Shown: piece by piece, positions 9,151 to 48,235 of the stretch
Layout of the letters: the number at the start of each line of letters is the position of its first letter
Position numbering within the stretch: position 1 is the stretch's first letter
Assembly (NCBI GenBank): GCA_008330645.1
Contig: VLTN01000016.1
Span: 496,001-560,000, forward strand
DNA length: 64,000 bases
DNA from: Cafeteria roenbergensis
Lineage: Eukaryota; Sar; Bigyra; Bicosoecida; Cafeteriaceae
Direction of reading: 5' to 3'
Position numbers and translations under genes: made by a program
Notes under the pieces: model-generated
Database searches by the model: none
Told to the model about the DNA's origin: nothing
What the model saw: only the letters and a program-made list of their open reading frames with translations

Positions 9151-9748
9151 GCCTGCAAAGTGCGCTTGGGCATACGCCTGCCACCGACCGGGCAAGCACC
9201 AGCTGGTTTGTGCTTCGTGTAGGCCTCTGGCGCGCCGGGGGCGAGTGGGCCAAGCCTGACTCTGGTCAGTGGGATATTCCGATTCGTGCAAGTATTCAGC
9301 CCCTCAATTCGCGAAACGGCGGCTTGAATCGGTGTCTGGCTCGCGCGCGCGAGTGACTGGAGGGCAGCAGCATGGTGCCCTACGTAGAAGCAGTCGGGGA
9401 GGCAAGCCGGCTCGTATCCTGTCCCTCTCCCTCAAAACATTCGTCGCTGCCAAGGGGCGCGCGATGCGGCGTGCAAGTTGCGGAATGATGACACAGGCAC
9501 GGAAACACAAAATCCATGAGGAAAAGCAGCGGAGGCGGCAGCGGCAGCAGCAGTGGCGGCAGCACTGCCAGCGGCCGAGGCGGTACTCGTTGCGGCGAAG
9601 CTGCCTCGAACGCCGATGCTGGCGCCGCTGATTCAGCTCCTTGGTCACCAAGCAACGGCCCGGCATGAAGGTACAGCTCAGACGCGAAAGCAGGCGAAGG
9701 CGCTGAAGGGGTGGAGGGAGAGAGGGAAGGGGGGGGGTGGCTGTGGCC
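9151..9748. other. Intergenic between METTL9 and the DOT1-like gene
   Basis: About 600 bp. It may contain an unrecognised 5' exon of METTL9 in the open frame up to 9291, and the 3' UTR of the neighbour. Purine/pyrimidine-biased repeats lie at 9520-9560 and 9705-9740. No gene is supported. Confidence 0.5.
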
Positions 9749-40118: not shown

Positions 40119-43100
40119 TCAAGCAGTGTCCTCGGCGGCGGAGAAGCCCATGCGTGACGCCAGCTCCGAGAAGCGGCGGCGCAGCTCGGCGTACGATGCC
40201 GACTGTCCGGCGTCGGACTCGGCCCAAGCAATGTGCGAGCGAGCGACGGCGACCATGCCGGCGTCACCGGCAGCGGCGGCGGCCTCGATGCCGTCCTTGG
40301 CAAGGTGGGTGAGCTCGTTGCGGGCATCGGCGCGCTTGCGGAACTCCTCGTCGGCAGCGCGGTTCTCCTCGGCGATGCGGACCATGCGGGCGATCTCGTC
40401 GGGGGAGATGTGGCCCGGGGAGTTGGCGATGGTGGTGGAAGCGGAGGCGCCAGTCTCGGCATCAAAGGCCGACACGTTCAGGATGCCGTTGGCGTCGAGC
40501 TCGAAGGTCACGTCGATCTTGGGCTCGCCGCGCTTGGCGCGCTGGATGCCGCGGATCATGAACTCGCCGAGGAAGTTGTTCTGCTTCGTCATGGAGCGCT
40601 CGCCCTCGAACACGCGGACCTCGATCTCGGTCTGGTAGTCCTCCTCGGTCGAGTAGCGCTGGGTCTTGCGAGCGGGGATGGGGGTGTTCCGCTTGATGAC
40701 GGAGCTCATCACGCCGCCGACGAGCTCGATACCGAGCGACAGGGGGGCAACATCCACGAGCAGAAGGTCAGTGGTGGCAGCGGCCTGGGCACCGGAGAGC
40801 ACGGCGGCCTGGACGGCAGCGCCATAGGCGACGGCCTCGTCCGGGTCGATACGCTCGCAAAGCTCCTTGCCGCCGAACTTCTCGCGAAGCATGGCGCGCA
40901 CCTTGGGGATGCGGGTGGAGCCACCAACGAGCACGACGTCGCTGACGTCCTTGGGCTTGACCGAGGCGTCGGAGAGCACGCGCATGACGGTCTCGATGCA
41001 CTTGTCGAAGAGGAAGCTGTTGATGCTCTCGAACTTGGCGCGCGAGACGGGCACAGACACGTCCACGCCGTCAAGGAGCTCGTCCACGGCCACGTTGGTG
41101 GTCATGGCGGTCGAGAGGATGCGCTTAGCGCGCTCGCAAGCGGTACGCAGGCGGCGAAGGGCGCGGGGGTTGGACTTGGGGTCCGCGCCGGCGTGGGTGC
41201 GGGCGATCATGGTGCAGGTGAGCTCGACAAGGGCGTTGTCGAAGTCCTCACCGCCAAGGTGGGTGTCACCGCCGGTGGCCATCACCTCGAACATGCCCTC
41301 CTCGATGGTGAGGAGAGACACATCGAAGGTGCCGCCTCCGAGATCGAAGATGAGCACGTTGGGCTTGTCGTCCACGGTGTCCGACACCTCGTGGGTGGCG
41401 GAGCCGTCGGCGGCAGCGCCGGCAGCGGCGGCAGCGGAGGAGCTCTTGTCCAGGCCGTAGGCGAGGGCAGCGGCGGTGGGCTCGTTCACGATGCGGAGCA
41501 CCTCGAGGCCAGCGATGGCGCCGGCGGCCTTGGTGGCCTGGCGCTGGGCATCGTTGAAGTAGGCGGGCACAGTCACAACGGCCTTGTGCACGGGGTGGCC
41601 GAGGAAGCGCTCGGCCGTCTCCTTCATCTTCTCGAGCACCATGGCGGAGATCTCCTCCGGGGCGAACTGGCGCTTGGTGCCGCGGTAGTCGACCTCGATC
41701 ATGGGCTTGTCGCCGGGGCCCTCCACAACGGCGAAGGGGAAGTGGCGCACGTCGCGCTGGAGCTGGTCATCGCTGAAGTTCTGGCCGATGAGGCGCTTGG
41801 CGTCGAACACGGTGTTGTGCGGGTTGGTCGCGGCCTGGGCAACGGCGGCGCGGCCGACGAGGCGCTCGGAGCCGCAGAAGGCGACCACCGAGGGCGTGGT
41901 GCGGTCGCCCTCCTCGTTGGCGATGATCTCCACGCGGCCGTCGCGCCACACACCAACGCAAGAGTTGGTGGTGCCGAGATCGATGCCGATCACAGTGCCG
42001 GCCTCGCCGACACCACCGTGGCCGGCGGCGGCGGCGGCAGCGGCGGCGGCGGCCGCAGCGGCGTCGGCCACGGCCTTCTGCGCCTTGGCAAGGCGCTCAG
42101 CGGCCACGGTGCTTCCGGGGTCGATGGTCACGGCGTGAGCGAACGCGGTCAGGGCCTCGGACGGGCGGCCGGCGGCCAGGAGGGCGTCGCCAAGGCGCAC
42201 GTGGCCCTTGGGGAAGTCGGGCTTGATCTCGACGCAGGTCTTGGCGTCGGCCTCGGCGGCCTCGAAGTCGCCGTTGCTGCGGGAAAAGGGGGGCGGGCGA
42301 GACGCACGAAACAAGCAGAGGCGTGAAGCAAAGTGGGCTGCCGGTCGCGATGGCGAGACACCGCGGCCGCCCGGCGCGGGCCGGAAAACCGGAAGGCCCA
42401 GGAGGGCAGTAGGCACCCAGCGGCTGGGGCCCGTGCGGGCCAGGGGGCGAGGGGAGGGGGCGGTTGCCATTCCTCGGCACCAATCTCCAGTGCAAGTGCT
42501 GGCAAGGCACGGCCGCATCCCAACGCTGCGCGGCTCCTTGCCGGCGAGCAGTGCGCGTCCGCTGCTCGTGGCAGCACCAGCAGGAACGGACTCGTGCTGG
42601 GGCACGAGGCAGGGGGCTTGCACGCGCGCAGTGCGGACGCAAGGAGCCGAGGGGGCGCGGTTCGGCAAGCGAGGTGGGGTCGCACCTGAAGTGGGCCGCG
42701 CTGCGGTTGCTGAACAGCACGTGGTTGCGGCTGTCGGCCTCGATGGCAGCGGTGTAGCTGGCGATCTGCGCAAACAGCCGAGACAACAAAGCAGCCAAGC
42801 GGGGCCAGGGGTAGCGGGGAGAGGGCCAGCGCGGCGAGTCTCAAGGTGCGCCGCTTGAACCTGGGAGGCATTGACACGGCCGTCTTCACCGCGACGGAAG
42901 GGGCAGGCCCTCGAGGCGCGCCCCCACCCCTTCGGAAGGCGCAACGCGACGCGCTGTGCTTGCGCTTCGCGGGGCTCACAGCGCTCATGAAGTCGCCGGC
43001 CTTGAAGGCGTCGTTGCCAAGCTGCTTGTGGCCCTCGGCGGCCTTGGCGGCGGCGGCGGCGGCGGACATGGCGGCCCCGGCACCGGACTCGGCGGTCTTG

Positions 43101-43138
43101 CCCTTGGCCTTGCGCTTCGTGCGGAACTTGGGGGGCAT
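40119..43138 (-). CDS. TPR-Hsp70 fusion chaperone
   Basis: Three exons (43138-42980, 42765-42686, 42276-40119) encode 798 residues; junction phases 0 and 2 close exactly. The first ~30 residues are Lys/Ala-rich ([14 protein letters not shown]). Residues ~33-145 form three TPR-like repeats ([90 protein letters not shown]). After a poly-Ala linker, residue ~173 starts a complete Hsp70: [68 protein letters not shown], then the substrate-binding domain ([20 protein letters not shown]) and helical lid. It ends FSAAEDTA, with no EEVD and no HDEL, so it is a cytosolic-type Hsp70 without the tail that TPR co-chaperones bind. The splice sites fall inside the TPR part, which argues against an assembly join. 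Confidence 0.93.
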
Positions 43139-43434
43139 GCTGATCCGCAGCGAAAGGGGCGAGTGCTCGGGCGGCGCGCTGCGCCGGCAGGGCACTGCGA
43201 AGGTTGCCGCCAAGCAGAGCCGCAGCGGCAGCAGCCTCTTTGGGAGCACGCAAACATTGTGTGCACACTCATCTGCAACTGGGGCTCCCCCTGGGGCCGG
43301 CAGGCTGCTGCAGGCCAGCCCGGCCAGGCCCCGGCAACAAGGGTGATATCCTGCCCGCATAGCGAGCAGACGCCCCTCTGACAAGAGGGGGAGCTCTAAC
43401 GAAAGCCCGTAGCCAGCGCGCCAGCCAGAGCGCC

Positions 43435-45614
43435 TCACTCCCGCCACGCCTCGCGAGCGCGCCCGCTCGCGGCAGCCGCCGCCTGCGGCGCCACCGCAGG
43501 AGCCGAGGACTCCTCGTCCGCCTGCGGCGCCACAAGCTCGATTGCCTCGCCTTCGTGGAGCTCGGTGCCGTGCTCGACGTTGGTGCGAGGGGCGCGCTTG
43601 CCTCCGCGCCGGCAGCAGCCCCCGCGGCTGCACAGCCACGCCGACAAGGCAAGCATGACGAACTCGAGGATCTCGACGATGGTCAGAGCGCTCATTCCGG
43701 CCCAGAGGCCGGTGTTTCCGCCGACCTCGCCGAGCATGCTCTCGAAGCTGTAGGCGCGCACCGTTGTCACCACCTGGTACTCGGTGGTGGGCGGGAAGAC
43801 GCGCACACTCATCATGTTCTGGGCGAGGTACTCCGGGGTGATGGATGTGTCCTGCTTGGCGCTCCGCACCACGTCCAGAATCGTGCTGGCCGAGGCGACG
43901 CTTGGCCACAGCTGGCGTCCCGCCGTGGCCGTGTAGAGGGTCTCGAGGCACCGGTCAGGGCAGCTTGCCGAACACCCCAGCTCGCCCGCTTGGAACCTTG
44001 AAAGCTGCGTGGCGATGCACGCCTTCTCCTCGCTCGAGCACACGTACAGCGACGGCCTCTCCTCCATGGTGGTGGGCCACGGCAGCAGCAGGCACTCGCA
44101 GACGTCGGCAACGCTCGCGTAGTAGCAGTCGCGCTCACAGGCGGTCTTCGCGTACCCCGCCGGGTCCGTCGCGCCGCTCTCGCTGTGCCATGCCTCGTTG
44201 CACGTGCCCCACGGCGGGAACAGGCGGGACCGGTCAACGCGCTCGAAGGCGATGTCCGAAGCAGAGCCGGGTCCCACTCCAAAGCCGGAGGTCGGGTTGG
44301 CCAGGACGCTGGGGTCGTGGATGATGACCCGGATGCCGGCCGACTCGGGGCCCTTGAACAGGGCCTCGACGGTCGAATTGCGGTTGTCGGGCGGGGCGCG
44401 GGCATCGCTTGCGCTCCCGGGCCCGGGGTCCTCCTGCACGCGTCTGGGAGCCAGGAGCCGCCGGGCGGGCTGGGAAGGCGAGGGCGTGCGAGTGGGTGAC
44501 GCTCCGGCCGGCGACGATGCCTGAGGGCTCGAAGAGGCTGCGGCAGGTGGAGGGCTGCTTGATGCAGTTGCACTGGAGCTCGACGTCTGCGGCGACGCCT
44601 GCGCCGACGCCTGCGCCGACGTCTGCGGCGACGTCTGTGGGGACGTCTGCGGCGACGTCTGCGGCGAAGTCTGCGGCGACGTCTGCGCCGATCCGGAGGA
44701 GTCTGGCTCGGTGCCAGGGCCCTGGTCAGCTCCCGACGCCTGCCGCACCGAGGTCCGGGGGGAGTACCCCACGTACTCGGCTTGCTCGATGTCGAGCACG
44801 AGGCGCAGGCCATAGTCCGGCCCGGTGCGAGCAGAGGTCAGCGGGTTTGGGCCGCTCGCATTGAACTCCTCGCCGTCGATGGTGAGCGCGCGCAAGCCGT
44901 GAAAGGTGTAACACGCGCCGAATTGCGCATCGAGGAGCACCGAAAAGTTGTCGGCAAAGCACTCCAGGCCAGCGAACTCGCAGCGCAGGATGAAGTTGTT
45001 CACCGGCTGCGTCATCAGCTCGAGGACGCTGTTGTTGAGAGTGGACAGCCCGTACTGAGCCACGCGCGACTGCTGGAACCCGTTTTCGTTGCATACCGTC
45101 ACGGCAGGGAACGGAACGGGCGCGCGGCTCTCCCACTTGACCACGGTGGCAGTTGGATTTTGCAGGAAGTACTGCACCCGATCCGTCACGATGACCACGA
45201 GCGCGACAAGCGCGCCAAGCAGAAGCACGAGCCACAGCCACCTGCGGTCGTGGTTGGGGTGGTGTCTGGGGCGCGAGGGCTGCAGTGGGTGACGCTGCGC
45301 TACCCAACGCGCGCTCTCGGGACATTGCCGTGAAAGCCGGCAGCAACCGCTTGCAAACGCTCACCGCCGACAAGAGCGCTCCTTAGACAGGTAGAACACC
45401 TTTCCCACCCCGTGCGCCTGCGGGGCGCGGTAGGAAAGACAGCGCATGCCGGAGCAGGGGGCGAGCCAGAGGGTTCCGCGTCGGGAAGGGCTGGACGCAT
45501 TGACCCGCCTGTTGTCGTGCTGGCAGTGACGAAGCGCAGCTCTCTCACGGTTACATTGTCCGAGAACTCCTGGAGCGGCTGGAAGCCTTCGGGCTGCCTG
45601 CTTTCCGACGACAT
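43435..45614 (-). CDS. DEG/ENaC (amiloride-sensitive-type) cation channel subunit
   Basis: Three exons (45614-45549, 45417-45365, 45241-43435) give 641 residues; phases 0 and 2 close. Splicing exon 1 to 2 produces FSDNVT-AHGVGKVFYLSKERS, the cytoplasmic segment with the gating His-Gly motif, directly before TM1 (WLWLVLLLGALVALVVIV). Then come the post-TM1 FPAVTVCNENGF motif and a Cys-rich extracellular domain (CEFAGLECF, ERDCYYASVADVCEC, GCSASCPDRC). Before TM2 lies YSFESMLGEVGGNTGLWAGMS, holding the Gly-x-Ser selectivity filter (GMS), followed by ALTIVEILEFVMLALSAWL. Family members are trimeric Na+-selective channels gated by protons, peptides or force. A ~100-residue Ser/Pro/Gln/Ala insertion sits in the ectodomain around residues 215-320. 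The intracellular tail has a Cys/Arg patch after TM2. Ion selectivity cannot be read with certainty. Confidence 0.92.
44582..44690 (-). repeat. 12-bp minisatellite encoding TSPQ repeats in the channel ectodomain
   Basis: About nine units of a 12-bp repeat (GACGTCTGCGGC on the plus strand) encode Thr-Ser-Pro-Gln with Ala variants. The copy number is likely to vary between alleles. Confidence 0.85.
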
Positions 45615-46243: not shown

Positions 46244-48235
46244 ATGGCTCGCTGCACGGCAGCGGTGCTCCTAGGGGCTGCGCTGCTGTCCGGTGGCGCG
46301 CTTGGCCGCATCCACGACTTGGAAATCGTGAACGATGGCCGGTTCGTGTTCGACCTGGAGACGTTTGGCTTCCACGCCGGAGGCACGCTCAACCTCAAGA
46401 TCTCCGACTTCAAGGTGAGGCCGGCAACGGGGCGCCCCGGGGAGCGATAGCTGCTGTGGGACGCAGGGAGGCGGCTCTTGCTGGGCTTCCGTGCAGCGGC
46501 TGCTCGTTGGTGGCCGTTCTCCGCGCGTTTCCGAAGCGTGCCTTGCCCCGCATGCACTGGCGCTGCTTGCGGGGCGCGAGATCGCGTCCTTCCCGTGTCC
46601 GGCCCGCCTTCTGCCTGCAGGTGGTAGCCCCCGCTGGGGCGGACACGTTTGCAGGCTTCGTCTTGCGCCAGGTGAGCCCCGAGGCAAATTGCTCCGCAGA
46701 GCGCTGGTAGCCGGCCCTGGTCGCTTGTGCCCCCCCTTGCGCACGCGGCACCCCAAATACCACTCACGGGAGTCTTCGTTTTCCCGGCTCGGTCCGTGCA
46801 GCGACGCCGAGGCCGCGCCCACGTGTCGTGGTGCTCGCTCCGATGTTGCGTCTCGCTCGCAGACCGAAAACAAGGTTGCGACGGAGAAGAACCTTGAGCT
46901 GCTGTGGAAAGACCACACGTGCCTTCTGTCCGACATCGTCCCTGGGCCCAACGATCGGATGATGAACATGTCTGAGGAATCTGGGAGCTTGAGTGCCCAC
47001 ATCACGGAGCCAGGCTTCTACTCCCTCATTTACACGCGGTGAGCCAGGCCGCCGCCGCCCCCGCCGCCCCCCCACTCCCCCTCCCCCTTCCCCCCGCCAC
47101 CCTCCTCTCGCGTTCCGCCCCGACGCCTGCGAGCCGCTGCTCCCGCAGGTGCGAGCCCTTCGCCGACGCAAAGTCCTCGTTCAAGGCGCACGCCGAGTTT
47201 GTGAACCCTGGGGGCAACTACCTGAGCGCCGGCGCCCAGGCCCTGCCCGGGATCCTCGGGGCGTCCTCGCTTGCCTTCGCCGTGGCGACGGGCGTCTGGG
47301 TGTGGCACCTCACCCGCCACGGCGAGAAGATTCATGCCGTCCACCACATGTTCACCGTCCTCGCCGCAACCAGGGCAGCCACGGCCGCGTCCGAGGCCAT
47401 CCAGCTCGCAGCCATCGCGTCGGTCGGCCACCCCACGGGCTGGTCTGCTCTCTACTACGTGATTCTCTTCTGCAAGGGCCTCCTGTTCTTCGCAGCCATC
47501 CTCCTCATCGGGACCGGCTGGTCGCTCGTGAAGCCCTTCCTCAACAAGTGGGAGATCCGCGTTCTTGCCTTTGCGCTCCCCTGCCAAACTCTCGTCAACG
47601 TGGCCATTGTGGTCGTGGACGAGATGGCCCCGGGCTCCATCCCGTTCGAAGACTGGCTGTTCGTCCTGCACTTCTTCGACGCGGCCTGCAGCGTAGCCAT
47701 CCTCCTCCCGGTGGCGTGGACGGTCCGGTCGCTCGCGACTGCCGCAGCCGCGGACGGCAAGGCCCGTGAGGCCCTGGACCGCCAGCAGCGCTTCCGCAAC
47801 TTCTTCATCATCACCATGCTCTTCTTCTACACCACGCGCTTCGGAAACTACCTCTTCGACCTCACGATGCCCTACTGGGCGCAGTGGGTCCCTGGGATGC
47901 TTGTGGAGCTGGTTACTCTCCTCTACTACCTCTGGGTCGGGTGGACCTTCGGACCCGTGGCCGAGAACCCGTACATGCGCGTGAGGGCTGCCAGTGGCGA
48001 TGACGGGGAGTTCGGGCTGGACGACAGCGGAGTGGACACAGCCGCAGCAAGCGCGGGTGTCGATGGCTCTCACGCCGGCGACGACGGAGAGGTTGTGGCT
48101 GCCGCTGAGGAGGGTCGCAGGCCCAAGTCTGCGCCGGAGGCCGCTGCGCCTCCCGCTGCCCCGGCCCGTTCGCCTCCAGTTGCCTCGTCGCGTGCACAGG
48201 CCGCTTCCGACTCTGAGGACGCGCACAAGGACTGA
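46244..48235 (+). CDS. GPR107: GPR107/108-type GOLD-domain seven-transmembrane protein
   Basis: Golgi/endosome seven-TM proteins of this family (also plant CAND6/7) act in membrane trafficking and have a luminal GOLD-like domain. Exons 46244-46414, 46621-46671, 46863-47038 and 47149-48235 give 494 residues; phases 0, 0 and 2 close. Exon 1: signal peptide MARCTAAVLLGAALLSGG, then HAGGTLNLKISDFK. Exons 2 and 3: GADTFAGFVLRQ and the rest of the luminal domain to EPGFYSLIYTR. Exon 4: NYLSAGAQALPGILGASSL entering TM1, then IHAVHHMF, YYVILFCKGLLFFAAILLIGTGW, ALPCQTLVNVAIVVVDE, LFVLHFFDAACSVAILLPVAWTVRSL, TRFGNYLFDL, FGPVAENPYMRV. The KGxLLFxxIxLIGTGW and PVxENPY motifs are diagnostic. The cytoplasmic tail of ~90 residues is Ala/acidic. 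The luminal domain is shorter than in animals. Confidence 0.93.

Follow-up and report, generated by a model that had tools for sequence, protein, structure and literature searches.

In animals, channels of the DEG/ENaC family serve in touch, acid and peptide sensing and in salt balance. The hallmarks of the family are a His-Gly (HG) motif before the first transmembrane helix (TM1), a tryptophan at the start of TM1, 11–14 ectodomain cysteines and a Gly-x-Ser (GxS) motif in the second helix (TM2), and Heterokonta and Filasterea have been named as exceptions to its distribution (PMC9822975). Homologues were published in 2023 for Cafeteria roenbergensis and Tunicaraptor unikontum, with Symbiodinium sp. 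KB8 as the sole alveolate candidate; in the published tree, the Cafeteria sequences form, together with some cnidarian channels, the sister group of the rest of Clade B, and whether the family was lost or transferred is already debated there (PMC10507113). The presence of DEG/ENaC channels in Cafeteria is thus known, and the novelty for a microbial eukaryote that a first-pass annotation of our locus implied falls away, both the C. roenbergensis homologues and the ancestry question being in print. Those homologues, from the same species and of the same protein family, appear as rows of that tree and very probably include the gene described here or its paralogs; the abstract and section 6 of PMC10507113 describe neither the structure nor the number of the Cafeteria genes, nor their HG exon, nor the insert. 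We add to it the divergence of the paralogs, a low-complexity stretch in place of a 10-residue loop of ASIC1 and the lack of a His73 equivalent. The published genome of C. roenbergensis strain BVI comprises 36,327,047 bases in 170 contigs, with an N50 of 460,467 and a GC content of 70.1% (PMC6972860). The host of CroV and mavirus was renamed C. burkhardae in later papers (PMC8547959), and we infer that this is the same organism as the source of our sequence.

We analysed a stretch of 64,000 nucleotides (hereafter the window), in which a three-exon gene at 43435–45614 on the minus strand, with its ATG from 45614 and a stop codon finishing at 43435, encodes a 641-residue DEG/ENaC subunit once spliced. 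Its features, in the direction of transcription, are:

45549–45614, minus strand: exon 1 (MSSESRQPEGFQPLQEFSDNVT), the first 22 residues with the start codon; GT donor, counterpart exon in the paralog on contig C1, aligned with the ASIC1 N-terminus
45418–45548, minus strand: intron 1, 131 bases, GTGAGA..CCGCAG
45365–45417, minus strand: exon 2 (AHGVGKVFYLSKERSCR), with His24-Gly25 at 45414–45409; splice model, ASIC1 alignment, motif scan
45242–45364, minus strand: intron 2, 123 bases, GTGAGC..ACCGCAG; its retention gives an in-frame stop
43435–45241, minus strand: exon 3, with TM1, ectodomain, TM2, cytoplasmic tail and stop; Pfam match, splice model, ASIC1 alignment
45172–45240, minus strand: TM1, about residues 41–63, Trp41/Trp43 at its start; hydropathy
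45091–45111, minus strand: FPAVTVC motif after TM1; motif scan
44344–44766, minus strand: insert region, residues 199–339, replacing about 10 residues of ASIC1; ASIC1 alignment
43690–43698, minus strand: Gly555-Met-Ser557 selectivity-filter motif, in TM2; motif scan, paralog alignment

The frame is intact from ATG to stop and both introns (131 and 123 bases) have GT..AG ends. The gene is complete, as first annotated, and its coordinates are exact. Without splicing, the frame meets a TGA at base 2 of intron 2. When the spliced protein is aligned with ASIC1, the first aligned stretch covers residues 3–105 and crosses both splice junctions, which supports both introns and the exon model. The first-pass annotation also described the HG motif as rebuilt by splicing: this is right in substance, since the motif lies in exon 2, one residue past the T22|A23 junction, but the HG itself is unsplit. 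Elsewhere in the window, a single frame at 40122–43268 on the minus strand carries TPR repeats (residues 332–387) and, beyond an alanine-rich linker, an HSP70 domain (residues 426–1001; Pfam E 1.5e-215, best PDB matches to cytosolic HSP70s), and would be a TPR-HSP70 fusion provided that it is a single exon there. On the plus strand, the adjoining frame at 46976–48235 codes for a seven-transmembrane domain of the GOST family (PF06814, E 7.5e-16).

Membership of the gene in the DEG/ENaC family was established by profile and by structure-database searches. Firstly, the open frame containing exon 3 (43435–45360) matches Pfam ASC (PF00858) with an E-value of 1.9e-65 and a score of 222.1 bits, against a curated cut-off of 23.6, and no other family is listed for this frame at E-values up to 1. 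Among 14 control genomes, the PF00858 search rose above the cut-off in one, that of the bacterium Thermotoga maritima. Secondly, a PDB search with the spliced protein hits ASIC1 with an E-value of 3.8e-42, and 30 distinct PDB sequences in all at E-values up to 0.001, comprising ASIC, ENaC, FMRFamide-gated (FaNaC), Pickpocket and Broad-range thermal receptor chains, the last of which we take to be members of the family as well. E-values of 1.9e-65 and 3.8e-42 exclude a chance match. Thirdly, each of the hallmarks is present. His24-Gly25 precedes TM1 after splicing; Trp43 is aligned with the ASIC1 tryptophan and is invariant in all four Cafeteria genes known to us (see below); hydropathy peaks at residues 37–66 and 552–578 mark the two transmembrane helices; and GxS occurs in TM2 as GMS in this gene and its C1 paralog, GIS in the gene on contig C33 and GAS in that on contig C23. 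Residues 66–555 hold 14 of the 18 cysteines of the protein, bearing out the Cys-rich ectodomain of the first-pass annotation, and the FPAVTVCN that it had placed after TM1 is found at residues 84–91. Its Gly-x-Ser filter exists too, as Gly555-Met-Ser557, but lies inside the TM2 hydropathy peak and not before TM2. In the six frames of the 64-kb window, the patterns FPAVT[VIFL]C and G-x-SALT-x-VE are confined to this gene, and the HG pattern used occurs in it and at one other site (9495–9518, plus strand). An AlphaFold model of exon 3, built from 4 rows, reached a pLDDT of 34.2, too low for a reliable fold; a DEG/ENaC fold is predicted for the product from sequence homology. We conclude that the product is most likely a pore-forming subunit of a DEG/ENaC channel in the bicosoecid flagellate C. 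roenbergensis (strain BVI).

The best match among PDB sequences is ASIC1 (chains 6ave and 9e4a). The two proteins have in common the aligned N-terminus with its HG motif, TM1, the FGV-PG and PPWG motifs and TM2, and 9 of the 10 cysteines of the C-terminal half stand in the same columns, whereas identity over that half is only 28%. ENaC alpha, gamma and delta score below ASIC1 and are about 24% identical to the Cafeteria protein, yet they share with it a Trp-Pro motif that ASIC1 lacks; in ENaC alpha, moreover, all 10 C-terminal-half cysteines fall in the same columns, and the third-last ectodomain cysteine has the same spacing, GCxxxC, where ASIC1 has CxC. A C-terminal segment taken alone scores highest with ASIC5. 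The signals of subfamily therefore conflict, the score favouring ASIC1 while the Trp-Pro motif, the cysteine spacing and the published tree favour the ENaC side.

One difference from ASIC1 lies in the ectodomain, where about 10 residues of the chicken protein (233–242) stand opposite about 141 in the Cafeteria gene (residues 199–339), a mostly Ser/Pro/Gln/Ala-rich, low-complexity region within which a 12-base tandem array occupies 44581–44691. We take the ASIC1 loop 233–242 to hold acid-pocket residues; by this alignment, the acid-pocket loop, a feature of the ASIC subfamily, is absent from the window gene. A low-complexity stretch in an ectodomain region of about 140 residues is unusual, and it counts, like the T. 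maritima match and the conflicting signals of subfamily, against our best explanation, a pore-forming subunit. The positions of ASIC1 Tyr71, His73 and Asp78 are occupied by Asn, Thr and Lys, and that of Lys211 by Arg, so that neither His73 nor Lys211, the ASIC proton-sensing residues named in PMC10507113, has its counterpart here. Their absence leaves proton gating possible, as several proton-activated channels lack them (PMC10507113). The gating of the Cafeteria channel is nonetheless probably other than that of ASICs, given that the gene has retained neither the acid-pocket loop nor equivalents of Tyr71, His73 and Asp78.

Searching the genome (36,303,456 bases in 167 contigs) with Pfam ASC gave at least nine matches, which represent at least four genes, one each on C1, C16, C23 and C33, contigs of 0.4–1.5 Mb; the window is part of C16. 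Viral or bacterial carriers were looked for as well, by alignment-guided scanning of viral contigs (80 stretches matched a pattern) and of a set of genome contigs (19 stretches), which yielded no relative. The C1 paralog (locus L002) shares the three-exon layout, its introns measuring 100 and 160 bases, and the GMS filter, and is 78.6% identical to the window gene over the C-terminal half, against 29–31% for the C33 and C23 genes. It differs in its insert, in which the repeat unit is 18 bases instead of 12, and in a synonymous divergence that is nearly saturated. The pair is under purifying selection: dN/dS is about 0.10 for the core (454 codons), rising to 0.30 for the insert (121) and 0.82 for the tail (52), values that are rough with dS at 1.1 to 2.5, near saturation. 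The 18-base repeat itself (L002, 1087–1321; 13.1 copies, 99% match) encodes the AASSPG stretch of the channel ectodomain and, at a guess, perhaps varies in length between strains. The C23 gene (locus L003, 1036–3252) is divergent, with GAS as its filter and a long C-terminal tail that finishes in prolines; its HG motif (TTLHGLHKALYL) is in one open frame with TM1 and needs no splicing. The C33 gene (locus L001, minus strand) is likewise a divergent member of the DEG/ENaC family (Pfam E 4.8e-56); upstream, SSTSAHGFGRIG is a candidate HG stretch, cut off from the TM1 of this gene by a stop codon, so that an intron would be needed there. Apart from the 79% pair, the Cafeteria paralogs are 25–31% identical to one another, against 21–28% to ASIC1 and ENaC.

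We then compared these genes with animal channels in an unrooted tree restricted to the C-terminal half, its nine rows being two ASIC1 sequences, ENaC alpha, gamma and delta and the four Cafeteria genes. It used 5 of the 30 distinct PDB sequences; those left out (near-copies, ASIC2, ASIC5, ENaC beta, FaNaC, Pickpocket 26 and BRTNaC1) were duplicates or did not cover the whole C-terminal stretch, and the tree is without cnidarian or other protist rows. The four Cafeteria genes were split from ASIC1 and ENaC with a support of 93/94 (below the starred level), and in 91% of 200 bootstrap trees; the split is weak, as the C33 and C23 genes are long branches that meet and the C23 gene deviates in composition.

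How the family came to be in Cafeteria can be read in several ways. That an animal gene was transferred to the bicosoecid lineage and duplicated afterwards is quite possible, if short of probable: the patchy distribution of the family speaks for it, as do the published tree, where sequences of C. roenbergensis join a set of cnidarian channels as the sister group of the remaining Clade B (PMC10507113), and the Trp-Pro motif and cysteine spacing common to ENaC and missing from ASIC1. However, our small tree sets the Cafeteria genes as a group against ASIC1 and ENaC, with the weakness just described, and, one pair aside, the four differ from one another as much as from the animal rows; any transfer must therefore be old. 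We find it somewhat more doubtful that the family is older than animals, going back to an early eukaryote, with later loss from most lineages. This would agree with the homologues reported in a filasterean-related species and a stramenopile and with the Symbiodinium candidate (PMC10507113), with the deep divergence of the Cafeteria paralogs and with their separation from ASIC1 and ENaC. Against it, a search described by its authors as non-exhaustive recovered no members from the intervening lineages, choanoflagellates included, and Cafeteria falls within the Clade B part of the published tree (PMC10507113). The proposal of an old DEG/ENaC family in Cafeteria that diversified independently, having split off before or around the parting of ASIC and ENaC, seems to us on the whole unlikely.

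Two further explanations concern the gene itself. The insert and the C-terminal tail change fast, sharing 40% and 33% of aligned residues, respectively, with their C1 counterparts, as those of a decaying pseudogene might; the intact frame and splice sites, the 14 ectodomain cysteines and the core dN/dS of about 0.10 make decay very improbable, and we reject it. Contamination of the assembly by animal DNA, conceivable for a family best known from animals, has a negligible probability and is refuted by the genomic context, with four genes on contigs of such length, a coding GC of 68% inside the 65–77% range of the 2-kb stretches of the window, a paralog of identical intron layout, no more than 28.4% identity to any of the five animal rows, and an HSP70 and a GOST seven-helix gene, both of ordinary eukaryotic families, as neighbours. 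The claim that this is a resident gene therefore stands, on at least four paralogs on four contigs, the intron layout shared with C1, purifying selection and an identity of 23.5–28.4% to the five animal rows.

For a resident pore-forming subunit, the family suggests the following mode of action. Three subunits, identical or mixed with other Cafeteria subunits, would assemble into a cation channel, each contributing two membrane helices and a large, disulfide-braced ectodomain that would sense a stimulus; at a guess, this stimulus may be mechanical, chemical or contact with prey. By analogy with animal channels, the Gly-x-Ser filter would prefer sodium over potassium, so that on opening of the channel sodium may enter from seawater and depolarise the cell. 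The trimeric assembly, the sodium selectivity and a block by amiloride are all expectations drawn from the family; a glycine involved in amiloride block in ENaC and ASIC seems to be kept in the NTGLWAGMS of the window gene.

With four subunit genes that have diverged deeply, this flagellate, which is in culture, offers direct tests of DEG/ENaC function outside animals, and the Cafeteria genes provide additional rows for dating the family. If the Cafeteria family did diversify independently from before or around the ASIC–ENaC parting, DEG/ENaC channels would be pre-animal and widely lost, and their common ancestral channel would have lacked proton gating of the ASIC type.
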